A DNA stretch of 64,000 bases, taken from positions 1,224,001-1,288,000 of the forward strand of contig NZ_CP117229.1 in NCBI RefSeq assembly GCF_028596125.1. Direction: 5' to 3'. The notes below the pieces were generated by a model. The model saw only the letters and a program-made list of their open reading frames with translations. It made no database searches and had not been told where the DNA came from. How positions within the stretch are numbered: position 1 is the stretch's first letter; every line of letters starts with the position of its first letter. This DNA is from Listeria innocua (GTDB lineage Bacteria; Bacillota; Bacilli; Lactobacillales; Listeriaceae). Both the position numbers and the translations under genes were made by a program. Shown here one piece after another: positions 12,546 through 16,733 of this stretch.

Positions 12546-12579
12546 AAAACCCTTCTATTATAACTTAGAAGGGTTTTTT
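12546..12579. terminator. Bidirectional terminator between yneF and the accessory cassette
   Basis: AAAACCCTTCTA (12546-12557) pairs perfectly with TAGAAGGGTTTT (12566-12577) across an 8-base loop. It ends yneF on the plus strand and the five-gene cassette on the minus strand. Confidence 0.92.
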
Positions 12580-12581
12580 GA

Positions 12582-13313
12582 TTACTTTTTAGTTGCCGAA
12601 ATAATTAACATCATTGGACGACGATATTCATCTTGCATTTCTGGTAAATTTTTAAGTTCTGGAGCTGGTTCTGGTTCAATAACACTTTTAAGCTCAAAAT
12701 TATTTTGAAGGAGTGTCTGGATGTAAGTTGTAAGGGTGCGATGGTATTTTTTTACATCTTCGCCAAGGAAATGGGTTGTTCGAATCGATTCGTTAAAATA
12801 GCGATCAACTGGCCAGTGTAACTTATTACCAGTTTCGTCAGTATACCAATCTTGTCTGCCATCCGCGGTAAAAACTGGATGTTCGACAGAGAAAATAAAC
12901 TCGCCACCGGTTTTTAAATTAGTATGGACTTTTTTACAAATGTCTTGAAAGGAAGCGACATAATGAATAGCGAGTGAACTCATAATAACATCATACATCT
13001 CTGGCTCATTATCCATATCTTCTATCGCTTTTTGTTTATAATTAACTGCATTTGAAGTGGTCTTTTGTTTTGCTTCAGTTAACATGCGCTCAGATAAATC
13101 TATTCCAACTACTTTCTTCGCACCATGGTCGGCTGCATAAATACAGTGCCAACCGAATCCGCAGCCTAAATCAAGTACTGTCTTTCCATTAAAGTCTGGG
13201 AGAAGTTTTTTAAATTCATGCCACTCTCCAGCTGCTGCAAGTCCGTTTTTAGAACGAGGCATTTGACTATATTGTTCAAAAAATTCTTTGTCATCGTATT
13301 TATTTTCTTTCAA
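12582..13313 (-). CDS. Class I SAM-dependent methyltransferase, last gene of the cassette
   Basis: The 243-residue product is a Rossmann-fold methyltransferase. Motif I is VLDLGCGFGWH (46-56) with the acidic end of strand 2 at GIDLSERM (70-77); the motif IV region reads MYDVIMSSLAIHYV. There is no NPPY/DPPY or PC motif, so it does not look like a DNA base methylase; it resembles the broad UbiE/Methyltransf_11 group acting on small molecules or proteins. The start is TTG (13311-13313) behind AGAGGA. It begins 22 bases after the ParB-like gene ends, and is likely in the same transcript, but similar methyltransferases occur alone in many Firmicutes, so it may be an older neighbour rather than part of the system. 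The substrate is unknown. Confidence 0.8.
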   Translation of the reverse strand: MKENKYDDKEFFEQYSQMPRSKNGLAAAGEWHEFKKLLPDFNGKTVLDLGCGFGWHCIYAADHGAKKVVGIDLSERMLTEAKQKTTSNAVNYKQKAIEDMDNEPEMYDVIMSSLAIHYVASFQDICKKVHTNLKTGGEFIFSVEHPVFTADGRQDWYTDETGNKLHWPVDRYFNESIRTTHFLGEDVKKYHRTLTTYIQTLLQNNFELKSVIEPEPAPELKNLPEMQDEYRRPMMLIISATKK

Positions 13314-13335
13314 TTTTAATTCCTCTTTTCTTCAA

Positions 13336-13842
13336 TTAATCAGAAGCTTTACTGAATTCTTTATCTAAGAAGAGGTGAGTAAGGCCGCTCACTTGTTTTA
13401 AGCGTAAGATTTCATTTGCATCCATTCCAATATTTTTCATAATCCAGCTGTCTGACATGCCGCTATCTGCTAATTCACCAACAATAGAAGACATAAGCTC
13501 TACGTTATGAAAACCGCGAGCACGATTATGACGAATAGTAGAAGCTATCCGGTTTACGGTATCTTTTTCTAAAATAACTACTGGTAATAATTCTTTTTCT
13601 CTTTCGCGGATCCGTTTAGAAGTCTGCATGATAGTATATCGATGAAACCCGTCTATTATTTCATATTTATCAGAGTTTTCCAAGGGATAGCAAACGATTG
13701 GTTGTGTAAATCCATCTTCCCAAATAGATTTTTCTAGTAGTTTTAGTTCCGTGGCTGGAACGGTATTTGGATTATAATTATTTGCTTGAAGTTTGGTGTA
13801 GTGAATGGGAGTGACGTTGTATACTGGGCTTTTATAATTCAT
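13336..13842 (-). CDS. ParB-like (IbrB-type) protein
   Basis: The 168-residue product has an N-terminal ParB/sulfiredoxin-fold domain: the strand YTKLQANNYNPNTV, the central EIIDGFHRY motif (61-69) equivalent to the GERR region of ParB, and IRHNRARG (103-110) corresponding to the HxxR nucleotide-site region. It then ends in a short helix-turn-helix-like part (MSDSWIMKNIGMDANEILRLKQVSG). This arrangement, directly behind a PAPS-reductase-like gene, is that of IbrB. ParB-fold proteins of this kind may bind CTP/ATP or act as nucleases; which applies here is not known. The start is ATG (13840-13842) behind GAGGTGAT, nine bases after the preceding stop. Confidence 0.8.
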   Translation of the reverse strand: MNYKSPVYNVTPIHYTKLQANNYNPNTVPATELKLLEKSIWEDGFTQPIVCYPLENSDKYEIIDGFHRYTIMQTSKRIREREKELLPVVILEKDTVNRIASTIRHNRARGFHNVELMSSIVGELADSGMSDSWIMKNIGMDANEILRLKQVSGLTHLFLDKEFSKASD

Positions 13843-13851
13843 TATATCACC

Positions 13852-15156
13852 TCATAAAATATTATTATATTTCTCTAGTGCATGTTTTCTTTTCTCTAAT
13901 TCAAGCTTGGTTTGACCAAAACCCATATACTTACAGGTATAATCATTTTTTAAAATAGCGATACACATTCTTTTATATGTTGGAACGCTGGCGAATTCTT
14001 TGATTTTCAAGTCATCTGGATATTCTTTAAAGCGAACAATTTCCATGGGATTGGAATATGTACGTTTATTTTGAGGTTTTCCAAGGAAGTCAGCTTGTAC
14101 ATTTAAGTTTTTTAATTCCTCTACGGTTTCTACTTTTAAAGCGCCGCCTTTTTCGGTCCAATAATTAATGCTTGTTTTAAATTTTTTTAAATAACGTTCT
14201 CTTGTATAACTCGGTAATGTTGTAAGTAAAAATTCCAAATAAGATTTCCATGTGTGGTTTGGAGGTAAGTTAATTTCTTTCCATGCCATCGCTGAAGTTC
14301 CACCATAAATAGCCGTGAAATTGGCTCCGTTCACGCGACCAACTAATTTAGACCAAAGGGCAGGTTCAATTACGCGATATAACTTAAGACTTTCGGTTGC
14401 GGAATCATTGAAAGGGCTAGCGACACGCATATCATTCAAAGTTAAACCGGCTTGGTAAAACAAATCGTAAATTTTATTGTAAGGCCAATCGAATTTAGCA
14501 TTTGCAGTCCATATATCTTCTACTAACCAATCATGAATCGGGTAGGCGTTATATATGTTTTTGGAAATTTCAGTAGTCCAATTATAGTTTTTATACATGC
14601 GTTCTTTTTTATGGATCGCATTATAGCGGTTGAGCGATTCTTGTTGTCGAATACCGATTAAGGCAATGGTTTTTTCAGCTTTATTTTTAGTATGTAACCA
14701 GTGGATAAGTTTCTTGTTGAATTCGTAGTCCCAAATTGTATGGAAATCAAAATCAAAAGGGGCGTTGTCTTCATTTATCACAGATGGATAATCAGGCATT
14801 TCTCTTACCCAAATATCTTGTTTTGATTTTTCCCAAGGTATCCAGTGGTCGGTATACATCGAAACTGCGGATTGGGCTGCAATAGGAAGGCAACACCAAA
14901 GCGGCTCGATAATATCTAAGTTACTAGTTAACATTTCAGCTACAAAATCACTCGTCGCAGAATATTGACCTTCATAGTCCAAATGATATACATAAATTTT
15001 CTTTTGAATATTATTTTTTCTTATATAATCAATCATTAAATGAAGCATCACAGCACTATCTTTACCGCCAGAAAATGACACAATGATGTTATCGAATTCG
15101 GAAAAAATAACTTCCATTCTTTCTTGGGAAGCATCAAAGACTGTTTTAGAAAGCAT
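13852..15156 (-). CDS. PAPS-reductase-like PP-loop protein (IbrA type, DUF3440-like)
   Basis: The 434-residue product belongs to the adenine-nucleotide alpha-hydrolase/PAPS reductase superfamily. The PP-loop SGGKDS is at residues 29-34 (IIVSFSGGKDSAVMLHLM). Further family marks are LIGIRQQESLNR and the YPIHDWLVEDIWTANAKFDWPYNKIYDLFYQAG region, which match IbrA/DUF3440 proteins rather than assimilatory CysH; the C-terminal catalytic Cys motif of CysH is not seen. IbrA-like proteins are found in phages and islands, always near a ParB-like partner; DndC in DNA phosphorothioation is a distant relative. Its start (ATG 15154-15156) overlaps the helicase gene by 11 bases behind GAGGTGAT. The activity is unproven; sulfur or nucleotide chemistry on DNA/RNA is inference. 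Confidence 0.82.
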   Translation of the reverse strand: MLSKTVFDASQERMEVIFSEFDNIIVSFSGGKDSAVMLHLMIDYIRKNNIQKKIYVYHLDYEGQYSATSDFVAEMLTSNLDIIEPLWCCLPIAAQSAVSMYTDHWIPWEKSKQDIWVREMPDYPSVINEDNAPFDFDFHTIWDYEFNKKLIHWLHTKNKAEKTIALIGIRQQESLNRYNAIHKKERMYKNYNWTTEISKNIYNAYPIHDWLVEDIWTANAKFDWPYNKIYDLFYQAGLTLNDMRVASPFNDSATESLKLYRVIEPALWSKLVGRVNGANFTAIYGGTSAMAWKEINLPPNHTWKSYLEFLLTTLPSYTRERYLKKFKTSINYWTEKGGALKVETVEELKNLNVQADFLGKPQNKRTYSNPMEIVRFKEYPDDLKIKEFASVPTYKRMCIAILKNDYTCKYMGFGQTKLELEKRKHALEKYNNIL

Positions 15157-16345
15157 CCATAATCACCTCAAAAGAATTTTTTTGTGAGAGTTCTTTTTTA
15201 AATTCATGCAATAAACTCGTTTTTTTAGAAATGTTTGAATCAATTAGGTTATCTAGACCAACATTTCCGCTTAAATCATGATAGTAACAGTCTTGTGTTT
15301 GGCCGGTGCGGTAAATCCGACGTTCTGATTGATCGCGCTGAGAATAATCAAATGTTTTATCAAAATAAATAATTTGATTATAATATTGCAAATTAAGCCC
15401 GTAAGACGATTTAGCAAAAGTGGTAATTTTTACATTAGGAAACGCTTTAATTAATGCTTCTTCTGATCGCTTATATTTACAAAAAATGATGGTTGTAGCT
15501 TCTTTTCCTGCAATTAAAGATTCGACAATAGTGAATTTTTCTGAAGAGAGGCAATAACAATGTTGCATCACTTGGGACATCTCTAGAAAATTAATATTAA
15601 TTGTGTAAGCAGCTGCTTTTTGAAGGTAATCATCTTTTATTTCATAATATTTTTGCAAAAGTTCGTCGTCTATAGTGAAATCGTGACGAATATAATGCCA
15701 ATTGACTTTTAATTCAAGCGAAGAAGAGAATGTAAAAGGAGCGATTAATTGGTATAAATACTCTAAATTATGATATTTCTTAATAATGTCCATTGACTGT
15801 TGTTTGTTTTTCGATACTTGGGTAATGGTTACATATTCGCAAAATGTTTTTTTGAACTGGGAAAAACTTAAGTTCAATATTTTAGGAGAGAGAAATTCTA
15901 GTTGCGACCATAAGTCTAAAATATTTCTGCTTAATGGAGTTCCATTCATGATTAGTCGATAGTTTGCTAATCGAGAAAGTTTAATGGCTCGTTGCGTTCG
16001 GAGCGCGTGTTTATTTTTTATTTTTAAACTTTCATCCATAATAATATAGCTGTTAGACGATTTCTTTAGTTTGTCCCGGCATTTTAGATATAAGTGATCT
16101 GAGTTGGAAAGGGATTCAATGCCAATAATATCTTGTGGAAATTCGTAGCCCCATTTCTTAATCTCATTAGCGAGATTTTCTTTCGTCTGGAATGGCGTGA
16201 TCCACAAGACATAATCAGGACTTACTTCCTTAATTAATTCGCAAGCTACACGTGTTTTGCCTGCACCGGGTTTCATAAATAAAGCGCCAACATTATATTG
16301 TTTAAGTTTCTGTATTGCTTGTATTTGGTTGTCTAATAAGGTCAT
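15146..16345 (-). CDS. SNF2/DEAD-like helicase, phage type
   Basis: The 399-residue product is a compact superfamily 2 helicase. Walker A is KPGAGKT (25-31), motif II reads IMDESLKIKN (DES at 104-106; SNF2 members have DExH-like variants followed by K/N), motif III is MNGTPLSRNILDLWSQLEFL, and motif VI is SERRIYRTGQTQ near residue 345. Size and motifs resemble the small SNF2-type helicases of prophage replication modules. ATG 16345 is preferred because AGATGTGAT is 8 bases upstream; an in-frame TTG lies at 16351. The 5' end overlaps the upstream gene by about 44 bases and the 3' end overlaps the PP-loop gene, so the three are translationally linked. Confidence 0.82.
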   Translation of the reverse strand: MTLLDNQIQAIQKLKQYNVGALFMKPGAGKTRVACELIKEVSPDYVLWITPFQTKENLANEIKKWGYEFPQDIIGIESLSNSDHLYLKCRDKLKKSSNSYIIMDESLKIKNKHALRTQRAIKLSRLANYRLIMNGTPLSRNILDLWSQLEFLSPKILNLSFSQFKKTFCEYVTITQVSKNKQQSMDIIKKYHNLEYLYQLIAPFTFSSSLELKVNWHYIRHDFTIDDELLQKYYEIKDDYLQKAAAYTININFLEMSQVMQHCYCLSSEKFTIVESLIAGKEATTIIFCKYKRSEEALIKAFPNVKITTFAKSSYGLNLQYYNQIIYFDKTFDYSQRDQSERRIYRTGQTQDCYYHDLSGNVGLDNLIDSNISKKTSLLHEFKKELSQKNSFEVIMDAF

Positions 16346-16733
16346 TTGCAATTATCACATCTTTTTCAATTTTTTTAGGTATATGTGTACGAACTTTGAC
16401 GATACTATCGTTTATTTTTTTTGTTTGAAAATGTTGCATTATTTCTTCGTTTTCCTGCTTAAAAAGGAGCATCATTGTTGCTGCATCTATACTCTTTTTT
16501 TCGGTATGCTTTTTTAATGTAAAAATCCATGTATCTGGAAAATAAAAATAACTATAATCCGGAGAAACAGAAAATACCATTTTTCGCGGCAATAAGAAAA
16601 AATAACCCGCATATTCACTATAAGAGGGTATTTCTATAATTGTTTGTTTTTCCCATTCTTCAATTCTTTCGCTATATGTATAAATTTTGTTCCATTTTAC
16701 CATTAAATCTAAAACTCCCGTGTGTTTTGTCAT
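16302..16733 (-). CDS. Unknown protein, first gene of the cassette
   Basis: I do not recognise this 143-residue protein. It is rich in aromatic residues in its first half (YSEYAGYFFLLPRK; PDYSYFYFPDTWIF) and in charged residues in the second, with no membrane helix, signal or known motif. The frame extends 44-50 bases into the helicase gene, which makes a coupled reading likely. The ATG at 16731-16733 has no clear ribosome binding site; an internal ATG (16701-16703, giving MVKWNKIYTY...) has GGGAG eleven bases upstream and may be the true start. It is probably a partner protein of the helicase; that is inference from position alone. Confidence 0.55.
   Translation of the reverse strand: MTKHTGVLDLMVKWNKIYTYSERIEEWEKQTIIEIPSYSEYAGYFFLLPRKMVFSVSPDYSYFYFPDTWIFTLKKHTEKKSIDAATMMLLFKQENEEIMQHFQTKKINDSIVKVRTHIPKKIEKDVIIANDLIRQPNTSNTET

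Follow-up and report, generated by a model that had tools for sequence, protein, structure and literature searches.

A phage-type helicase, IbrA and IbrB gene cassette fixed beside pyrH in one clade of Listeria

We analyzed a 64,000-nucleotide stretch of the Listeria innocua genome (contig NZ_CP117229.1, positions 1,224,001 to 1,288,000; hereafter the window), in which the ORF list shows five minus-strand open reading frames (ORFs) at positions 12582..16733. These ORFs overlap or lie only 9–22 bases apart, and a single transcript is therefore likely. A previous sequence-only reading of the locus had described five overlapping or abutting genes carrying the motifs KPGAGKT, RIYRTGQ and SGGKDS, and these were found as quoted. 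We judge that the locus is best divided into a four-gene cassette, consisting of P1, a SNF2-type helicase and the products IbrA and IbrB, which form a pair already known by that name, and a separate methyltransferase gene. The cassette is fixed in one Listeria clade, in which it is kept by selection and is not decaying.

The four cassette products matched PHROGs families (P1: phrog_27058, E 4e-09; helicase: phrog_62, E 9e-68, the family of small SNF2 phage helicases; IbrA: phrog_2302, E 1e-103; IbrB: phrog_2159, E 6e-72), which links these genes to phage families. With NCBIfam equivalogs and PADLOC, the locus proteins gave only matches far under the curated scores or to generic domains. The compact helicase or translocase (15146..16351, minus strand; 401 aa from TTG 16351, with ATG 16345 a possible alternative start by eye) matched Pfam SNF2-rel_dom (PF00176; E 2e-14, 53.8 bits against a cut-off of 24.9) and carries a Walker A motif (KPGAGKT; GAGKTR), motif II (DES) and motif VI (RIYRTGQ). 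This domain and motifs I, II and VI assign it to the SNF2/SF2 helicases, with a predicted activity. It resembles the defence SNF2 proteins ZorD, DpdE and DrmD, but scored far under the cut-offs of the curated defence families (ZorD 55.1 of 1500 bits, DrmD 27.1 of 950), so that it falls outside Zorya and DISARM.

P1 is a small beta-rich protein of 133 aa encoded directly upstream of the helicase (16302..16703, minus strand). The listed ORF begins at 16733, but the start is most likely at 16703 (Met 11), where the alignment begins in all 15 Listeria loci that carry the cassette, over at least 124 residues. In 13 of these 15 loci, the frame reaches ..LIR and then stops, or the alignment ends there; the C-terminal tail reads ..NDLIR in the window and ..ELKR and similar in relatives. 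The P1 of the window continues for nine residues past ..NDLIR (16302–16331), an extension shared among the 15 loci only with L103. No Pfam family was found for P1, and its predicted structure (mean predicted local distance difference test, pLDDT, 86) had no match in the PDB at E 0.001.

IbrA (13852..15156, minus strand; 434 aa) has a PP-loop domain, with the motifs SGGKDS and GIRQQES, and a C-terminal DUF3440 domain. The Pfam matches (DUF3440: E 1e-84, 283 bits against a cut-off of 25; PAPS_reduct: E 3e-13), together with the SGGKDS PP-loop, indicate membership of the IbrA family. In 150 sequences, residues S29, G31-K-D-S, D60, E62, GxRxxES and Cys89 were at least 98% conserved, and the only cysteines kept by at least 90% of the sequences were Cys89 (147/150) and Cys408 (138/150). 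An earlier view, based on an alignment of 11 sequences, that IbrA has no invariant cysteine was revised accordingly, and the near-invariant Cys89 leaves sulfur chemistry possible for this protein. The best PDB matches of the IbrA model (pLDDT 84.5) were CysH (E 2e-08), CysD, FAD synthase, the transfer RNA (tRNA) thiolase NcsA and TilS, all of them ATP- or adenylate-using PP-loop proteins that cover only part of the model (template modelling score, TM, 0.3 when normalized to query length); TtuA was also among the matches. On curated scores, IbrA qualifies neither as the phosphoadenosine phosphosulfate (PAPS) reductase CysH (NCBIfam, 15.2 bits against 254.2) nor as DndC (equivalog, 31.6 against 290.4). 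Furthermore, it is the only protein in the genome matching PF01507, the PAPS-reductase family (controls matched 14/14). A role in sulfate assimilation is therefore not tenable, and the PAPS-reductase label of the sequence-only reading is not supported in that sense.

IbrB (13336..13842, minus strand; 168 aa; motifs DGFHR and IRHNRARG) is a predicted ParB/sulfiredoxin-fold protein. It matched Pfam ParB_N (E 5e-08, 33.2 bits against a cut-off of 26.3), and both D-G-x-H-R and R-H-N-R-A-R-G (RHNRARGxH) were present in at least 97% of 161 sequences. The domain and the first of these motifs point to membership of the ParB/sulfiredoxin (Srx) superfamily, and nucleoside triphosphate (NTP) binding is predicted. 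Sequence matches in the PDB included ParB, Noc and the free serine kinase, ranked behind designed helical proteins that matched through the helical tail, and a match to the chromosome-partitioning protein Spo0J covered residues 12–145 (E 0.02). According to published sources, the DndB domain is marked by the signature DGQHR and the similar motif DGQQR of GmrS corresponds to the sulfiredoxin NTP site (PMC4619093), DndB belongs to a ParB-like superfamily (PMC11662687), and ParBc proteins adjoin phage genes for cytosine hypermodification (PMC12783734).

We compared 25 Listeria genomes. PyrH was 99–100% identical to that of the window in 15 of them, and matches to P1, the helicase, IbrA, IbrB and the methyltransferase were all located beside pyrH in each of these 15 genomes. 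In the other ten (PyrH 86–93% identical), neither YneF nor any cassette protein was found in the 1.1–3.7 kb fetched around pyrH, where the ORFs differ. The placement between yneF and pyrH given in the sequence-only reading thus stands on the pyrH side in 15/15 loci; yneF was found at the edge of the interval in nine of these loci, and not in the stretch fetched for the other six. At one such edge without yneF, there is an ORF of at least 251 aa (L091:1-753), with alignable DNA in L096 and L099.

The helicase motifs GxGKTR, DESLKIKN and RTGQ and the IbrB motifs DGFHR and IRHNRARG were intact in 15/15 loci, as was the SGGKDS motif of IbrA, which is full length in 14/15, the sole broken copy being that of G005. 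The ratios of nonsynonymous to synonymous substitution rates (dN/dS; Nei–Gojobori, pairwise medians) were 0.134 for P1 (12 sequences, 66/66 pairs; three sequences with a start misplaced by the script were left out), 0.062 for the helicase (15 sequences, 105/105 pairs), 0.047 for IbrA (14 sequences, 91/91 pairs; the broken L103 copy left out), 0.044 for IbrB (15 sequences, 103/105 pairs), 0.074 for the methyltransferase (14 sequences, 87/91 pairs; the broken L093 copy left out) and 0.004 for PyrH (15 sequences, 105/105 pairs); these ratios are rough, as the median dS of the five locus genes (0.84–1.51) is near saturation. The low ratios and intact motifs indicate that the set is maintained rather than decaying, and its identical position in related species, under purifying selection, identifies it as a domesticated gene set. 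This agrees with one of the two options given in the sequence-only reading, an old and domesticated locus or a stand-alone system. That reading had also proposed comparing the interval across Listeria, reasoning that genes confined to prophages and randomly decayed would argue against a dedicated system; the set proved to be kept, and not randomly decayed.

Matches to IbrA were obtained in 18 of the 25 genomes and matches to the helicase in 20, 15 of the latter at 84–100% identity. G004 and G010 have IbrA and a helicase away from pyrH; in G004 (locus L114), IbrA, the helicase and IbrB lie near clpX- and tig-like genes, as read by eye. A second, distant IbrA–IbrB pair, with a small, perhaps acetyltransferase-like gene, was present in G009 and at an extra locus of G005 (L117:4746-7043; L116:8183-10445), one of these two loci adjoining glycosyltransferase-like genes (by eye). 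Outside the genus, DUF3440 was detected in 0/11 other genomes of the family and 3/397 other genomes drawn from the phylum, and one of these three genomes had a helicase match near IbrB.

The helicase, IbrA, IbrB and a P1-like gene also occur together in phages of four host genera. Streptococcus phage Bsingle has the order P1–helicase–IbrA–IbrB, as does Lactobacillus phage CR28, where the first gene is P1-like; Streptococcus phage CHPC1148 has one extra small gene between the P1-like gene and the helicase, and the order is small gene–helicase–IbrB–IbrA in Flavobacterium phage FCL-2 and IbrA–IbrB–small gene–helicase in Fusobacterium phage phiFN37. Phage modules matching the Listeria genes and their order lie between lysis and replication genes. 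The small phage genes align with P1 at 20–34% identity, but a tblastn search with P1 reached only Streptococcus phages (E 9e-06) and records named as Listeria. The P1-like proteins of the Lactobacillus, Fusobacterium and Flavobacterium phages (20–32% identity) were entered into the P1 profile by position, from which the second small ORF of FCL-2 was excluded, and their kinship with P1 is therefore less sure. The product '102: DNA helicase' of the Mycobacterium phage Nebkiss, which gave no alignment with the helicase motifs, was left out of the helicase profile. In a collection of 50,697 phage records searched at E 1e-5, there were 218 IbrA-like, 220 IbrB and 565 helicase records, and 12 for P1 at E 0.01; viral scans with single proteins found no relative. 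In phiFN37, the IbrA–IbrB set is followed by a ParB-like gene, a queuine tRNA-ribosyltransferase gene and a queuosine precursor transporter gene (L026:9463-11772), which we take to resemble deazaguanine DNA modification.

In a quick IbrA tree of 96 rows (45 full-length sequences with the helicase, random sets of 15 and 18 without it, and 18 named or from Listeria), the Listeria core and the G004 and G010 copies formed one clade (Shimodaira–Hasegawa-like approximate likelihood ratio test, SH-aLRT, 100), the next neighbour of which was a viral contig (99). The root of this tree is not known, two branches are very long and no bootstrap was made, so the direction of transfer is only inferred: a phage-type cassette may have been captured from a phage by the ancestor of the clade. 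The phage relatives carrying the same genes argue for a domesticated phage cassette rather than for prophage decay. The sequence-only reading had considered a fixed phage replication remnant, of which the phage type and the fixation hold; the dN/dS values and intact motifs speak against decay. The best-matching records, named 'Listeria phage LM 4-14-1', are unsound as evidence of a phage, since the one tested (L028, OR848903.1) shared 99.9% identity with the G016 chromosomal locus over its 3,209 bases, and is probably host DNA filed as phage. According to the report on FCL-2, neither an integrase or repressor nor lysogeny was observed for this phage, which argues against a function confined to lysogeny, and IbrA, IbrB and two upstream ORFs are common to this phage and a genome of its host species (PMC4541368), a case parallel to that of Listeria.

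The wider context of the pair was assessed in the best-scoring 80 bacterial and 80 viral loci obtained with the IbrB profile. IbrA was located within 2.5 kb of IbrB, on the same strand, in 159/160 loci, the remaining one being truncated at the end of its contig; the pairing asserted in the sequence-only reading is thus supported. A SNF2 helicase was present in the stretch of 49 loci, in the order helicase–IbrA–IbrB in 44 and IbrA–IbrB–helicase in five, and the trio proposed in the sequence-only reading is a real co-occurring set. It does occur outside phages, with the helicase in 18/80 bacterial loci, but is also carried by phage genomes (31/80 viral loci). The next gene upstream of the helicase (48 loci) was of the P1 type in 12, of a similar small cluster (c16) in three and of a larger one (c6) in eight, and was something else or unclustered in 25.

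Other partners accompany the pair. A stand-alone ectoine-synthase-like cupin was counted by clustering in 23 IbrB loci (Pfam Ectoine_synth in 2/2 tested), and the IbrB of Nebkiss matches Ectoine_synth in its N-terminal half, as a cupin–IbrB fusion. In viral contigs, such cupin genes are located between ibrA and ibrB, and in Nebkiss the cupin is fused to IbrB (L233:7034-7405, L257:5611-5994, L025:6299-7198), with no evident ectoine-pathway reason. A cluster of DEAD-type helicases (one member tested with Pfam) was found in 15 IbrB loci, each of which also has the cupin or a long form of IbrB; the SNF2 helicase was present in none of them. A 136-aa protein occurs in 53 IbrB loci, 50 of them bacterial and mostly Bacteroidales by record titles. 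Weak scores suggest that it is perhaps acetyltransferase-like: its best PDB profile match had E 0.016, two Listeria relatives gave weak Pfam GNAT scores, and the three 136-aa partners tested had no Pfam GNAT match. The C-terminal part of DUF3440 is also encoded on its own, as a protein of about 85 aa (L199:533-802 and 30 alike; the one tested matched Pfam DUF3440), and its neighbour is often a 143-aa protein carrying a WIGQAA-like motif.

Comparison with described systems shows that IbrA/IbrB of Escherichia coli ECOR-9, YbdN/YbdM of K-12 (by annotation) and lmo1310/lmo1309 of L. monocytogenes belong to the same two families, a DUF3440 PP-loop protein and a ParB-like protein. At the E. coli phage locus PhiR5_2, there is no annotated helicase beside the pair, whereas in Listeria the four genes form one set. 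The modules of Bsingle, CR28, phiFN37 and FCL-2 have the same helicase, IbrA and IbrB families and a P1-like gene, but their order varies (FCL-2, phiFN37), whereas the Listeria set lies on the chromosome, flanked by core genes, and has become fixed in a clade of bacteria. Dnd/Ssp phosphorothioation (DndC and DndB) likewise joins a PP-loop enzyme of the PAPS-reductase group to a ParB-superfamily protein; unlike in Dnd, the DndC score of IbrA is far below the cut-off. DndE and DUF4007 had no match in the genome, but the control genomes gave no match either. We know of no biochemistry of the IbrA/IbrB pair. In the published text available, lmo1309–1310 are named as IbrB and IbrA, and lmo1311 as a SNF2 protein, in a comparison of Listeria sensu stricto and sensu lato (PMC5736727), these genes being matched to the window by name rather than by sequence, and the pair is reported on an archaeal virus-like element (PMC8813620). 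No experiment on these Listeria genes was found in the literature searched, most subscription papers lying outside its reach, and the search yielded no paper joining phosphoadenosine phosphosulfate reductase, ParB and SNF2.

The cassette probably serves to chemically mark or process DNA. The sequence-only reading had inferred a modification or defence role; we favour an ATP-driven covalent modification of DNA by IbrA, with IbrB directing it to its target and the helicase assisting, a reading to which we assign a probability of about 0.4. In this scheme, IbrB, as an NTP-binding ParB/Srx-fold protein, would bind DNA and gate the system, the helicase with P1 would move along or remodel the duplex so that the target is exposed, and IbrA, through its PP-loop and ATP, would activate (adenylate) a DNA position and add a chemical group to it or replace one there. 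In phages, such a modification may shield or mark the phage DNA; in Listeria, the DNA of the host or incoming DNA would be marked or processed, perhaps with an effect on gene expression, which would explain why IbrA and IbrB originally received their names for co-activating prophage genes. Several points weigh against it. The weakest is the lack of a known product: we are not aware of any modified base, in E. coli K-12 or in Listeria, that has been linked to this pair. None of the cassette ORFs was seen to encode a nuclease. The helicase is not obligatory, as 111/160 IbrB loci showed no helicase of the SNF2 type within the fetched stretch. Its link to the pair may be loose, given 565 phage records for the helicase against 218 for IbrA (overlap uncounted). 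In G004 and G010, an IbrA with 74–76% identity is accompanied by a helicase with 32–33%. Finally, Cys89 is missing in 2/11 homologues aligned (FCL-2 and PhiR5_2) and 3/150 of the larger set. A broader version, which we consider doubtful, is that IbrA and IbrB form the core of an undescribed, modular family of DNA hypermodification systems, one phage version of which was fixed by Listeria and marks its own chromosome. IbrA would then activate the DNA, IbrB would target it, and interchangeable third parts would tailor or deliver the chemistry: the SNF2 helicase with P1, an ectoine-synthase-like cupin (in some cases joined to IbrB in a fusion) plus a DEAD-type helicase, or the small, perhaps acetyltransferase-like protein of Bacteroidales.

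Two other explanations, co-activation of prophage genes and defence against phages, compete seriously with covalent DNA modification. IbrA and IbrB may regulate the expression of (pro)phage or host genes, the helicase acting as a RapA/SNF2-like remodeller of transcription complexes and no covalent mark. The pair was named for activating the prophage eib genes of ECOR-9 (Sandt et al. 2002, as cited by PMC6008420 and in the reference list of PMC10434257), the partly available report on DndB describes this DGQHR protein as a transcriptional regulator in Salmonella (PMC4507180), and the Spo0J match of IbrB is in keeping with this. However, regulation leaves a kept ATP-using enzyme unexplained, S-x-G-K-D-S and GxRxxES being at least 98% conserved, and we hold it to be somewhat unlikely. 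Defence against phages or plasmids, in which IbrB would sense, the helicase would scan foreign DNA and IbrA would modify or deplete something to stop replication, is consistent with the likeness of the helicase to ZorD, DpdE and DrmD, with carriage by phages and fixation in a host, as might be expected of an inter-phage weapon, and with the varied neighbours of the set in Bacteroidales chromosomes. It is nevertheless unlikely: the scores are far below curated cut-offs (ZorD 55/1500 bits, DndC 32/290), no effector nuclease was seen, and the set is present in all 15 genomes of one clade, whereas defence genes are usually patchy in distribution.

The other explanations are much less probable. NcsA, TtuA and TilS among the fold matches of IbrA could indicate a modification of RNA or tRNA, with the helicase unwinding RNA, but the nearest matches are CysH and CysD, Pfam found no RNA-binding domain, and SNF2-type enzymes and ParB-fold proteins mostly act on duplex DNA, making this improbable. 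The annotation of IbrA as a PAPS reductase and the listing of lmo1309–1310 as a candidate toxin–antitoxin pair in L. monocytogenes (PMC7020466, in the part available) would fit a helper of sulfate assimilation or a pair with IbrB as the antitoxin and IbrA as the toxin. Both are very improbable, as the first meets the sole PF01507 match and the 15 of 254 bits reported above and the toxin call is guilt by association only. A decaying phage remnant devoid of function, to which the match in genes and order with phage modules might point, is scarcely credible, and is refuted for the clade as a whole by retention in 15/15 loci, dN/dS values of 0.044–0.062 for the helicase, IbrA and IbrB and intact motifs. 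Phages infecting many different hosts encode IbrA-like 'PAPS reductases', which PHROGs places in its category of auxiliary metabolic genes. Here, IbrA is under strong selection in a host genome with no other protein of that family, and a host-fixed copy in a tractable genus provides a clean place to learn what the phage pair does.

The methyltransferase gene (12582..13313, minus strand; 243 aa) encodes a predicted S-adenosylmethionine-dependent enzyme (Pfam Methyltransf_25, E 5e-19; PDB 3g5l, E 1e-143; phrog_4752, E 8e-26) and is judged to be a neighbour rather than the fifth member that the sequence-only reading had counted, or a tailoring enzyme. Full-length homologues with 55–58% identity occur in the cassette-free genomes G007, G013 and G023, and a split one in G001, all four without an IbrA match; tblastn detected no tkt or yneF in the 10–11 kb around three of these homologues. 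The gene is also broken in three cassette-bearing loci (L093, L095 and L097), and among the 160 IbrB loci only the two from Listeria match it. It is followed by a terminator-like hairpin of 12 pairs (12546..12577, minus strand), identified by pattern match alone, such patterns numbering three against 2.9 in shuffled sequences; scanning for promoters was not informative, with 29 against 21 in shuffled sequences. The GC contents of P1 (0.29) and the helicase (0.32) were the lowest among 23 genes compared, those of the other three genes being 0.34–0.37, and codon scores were within the range of the window genes, except for the helicase, which had the lowest, so any foreign composition or codon signal is weak at most. 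The set is flanked by tkt, yneF, pyrH and other core genes, according to a by-eye reading of the ORFs at 10–20 kb of the window.

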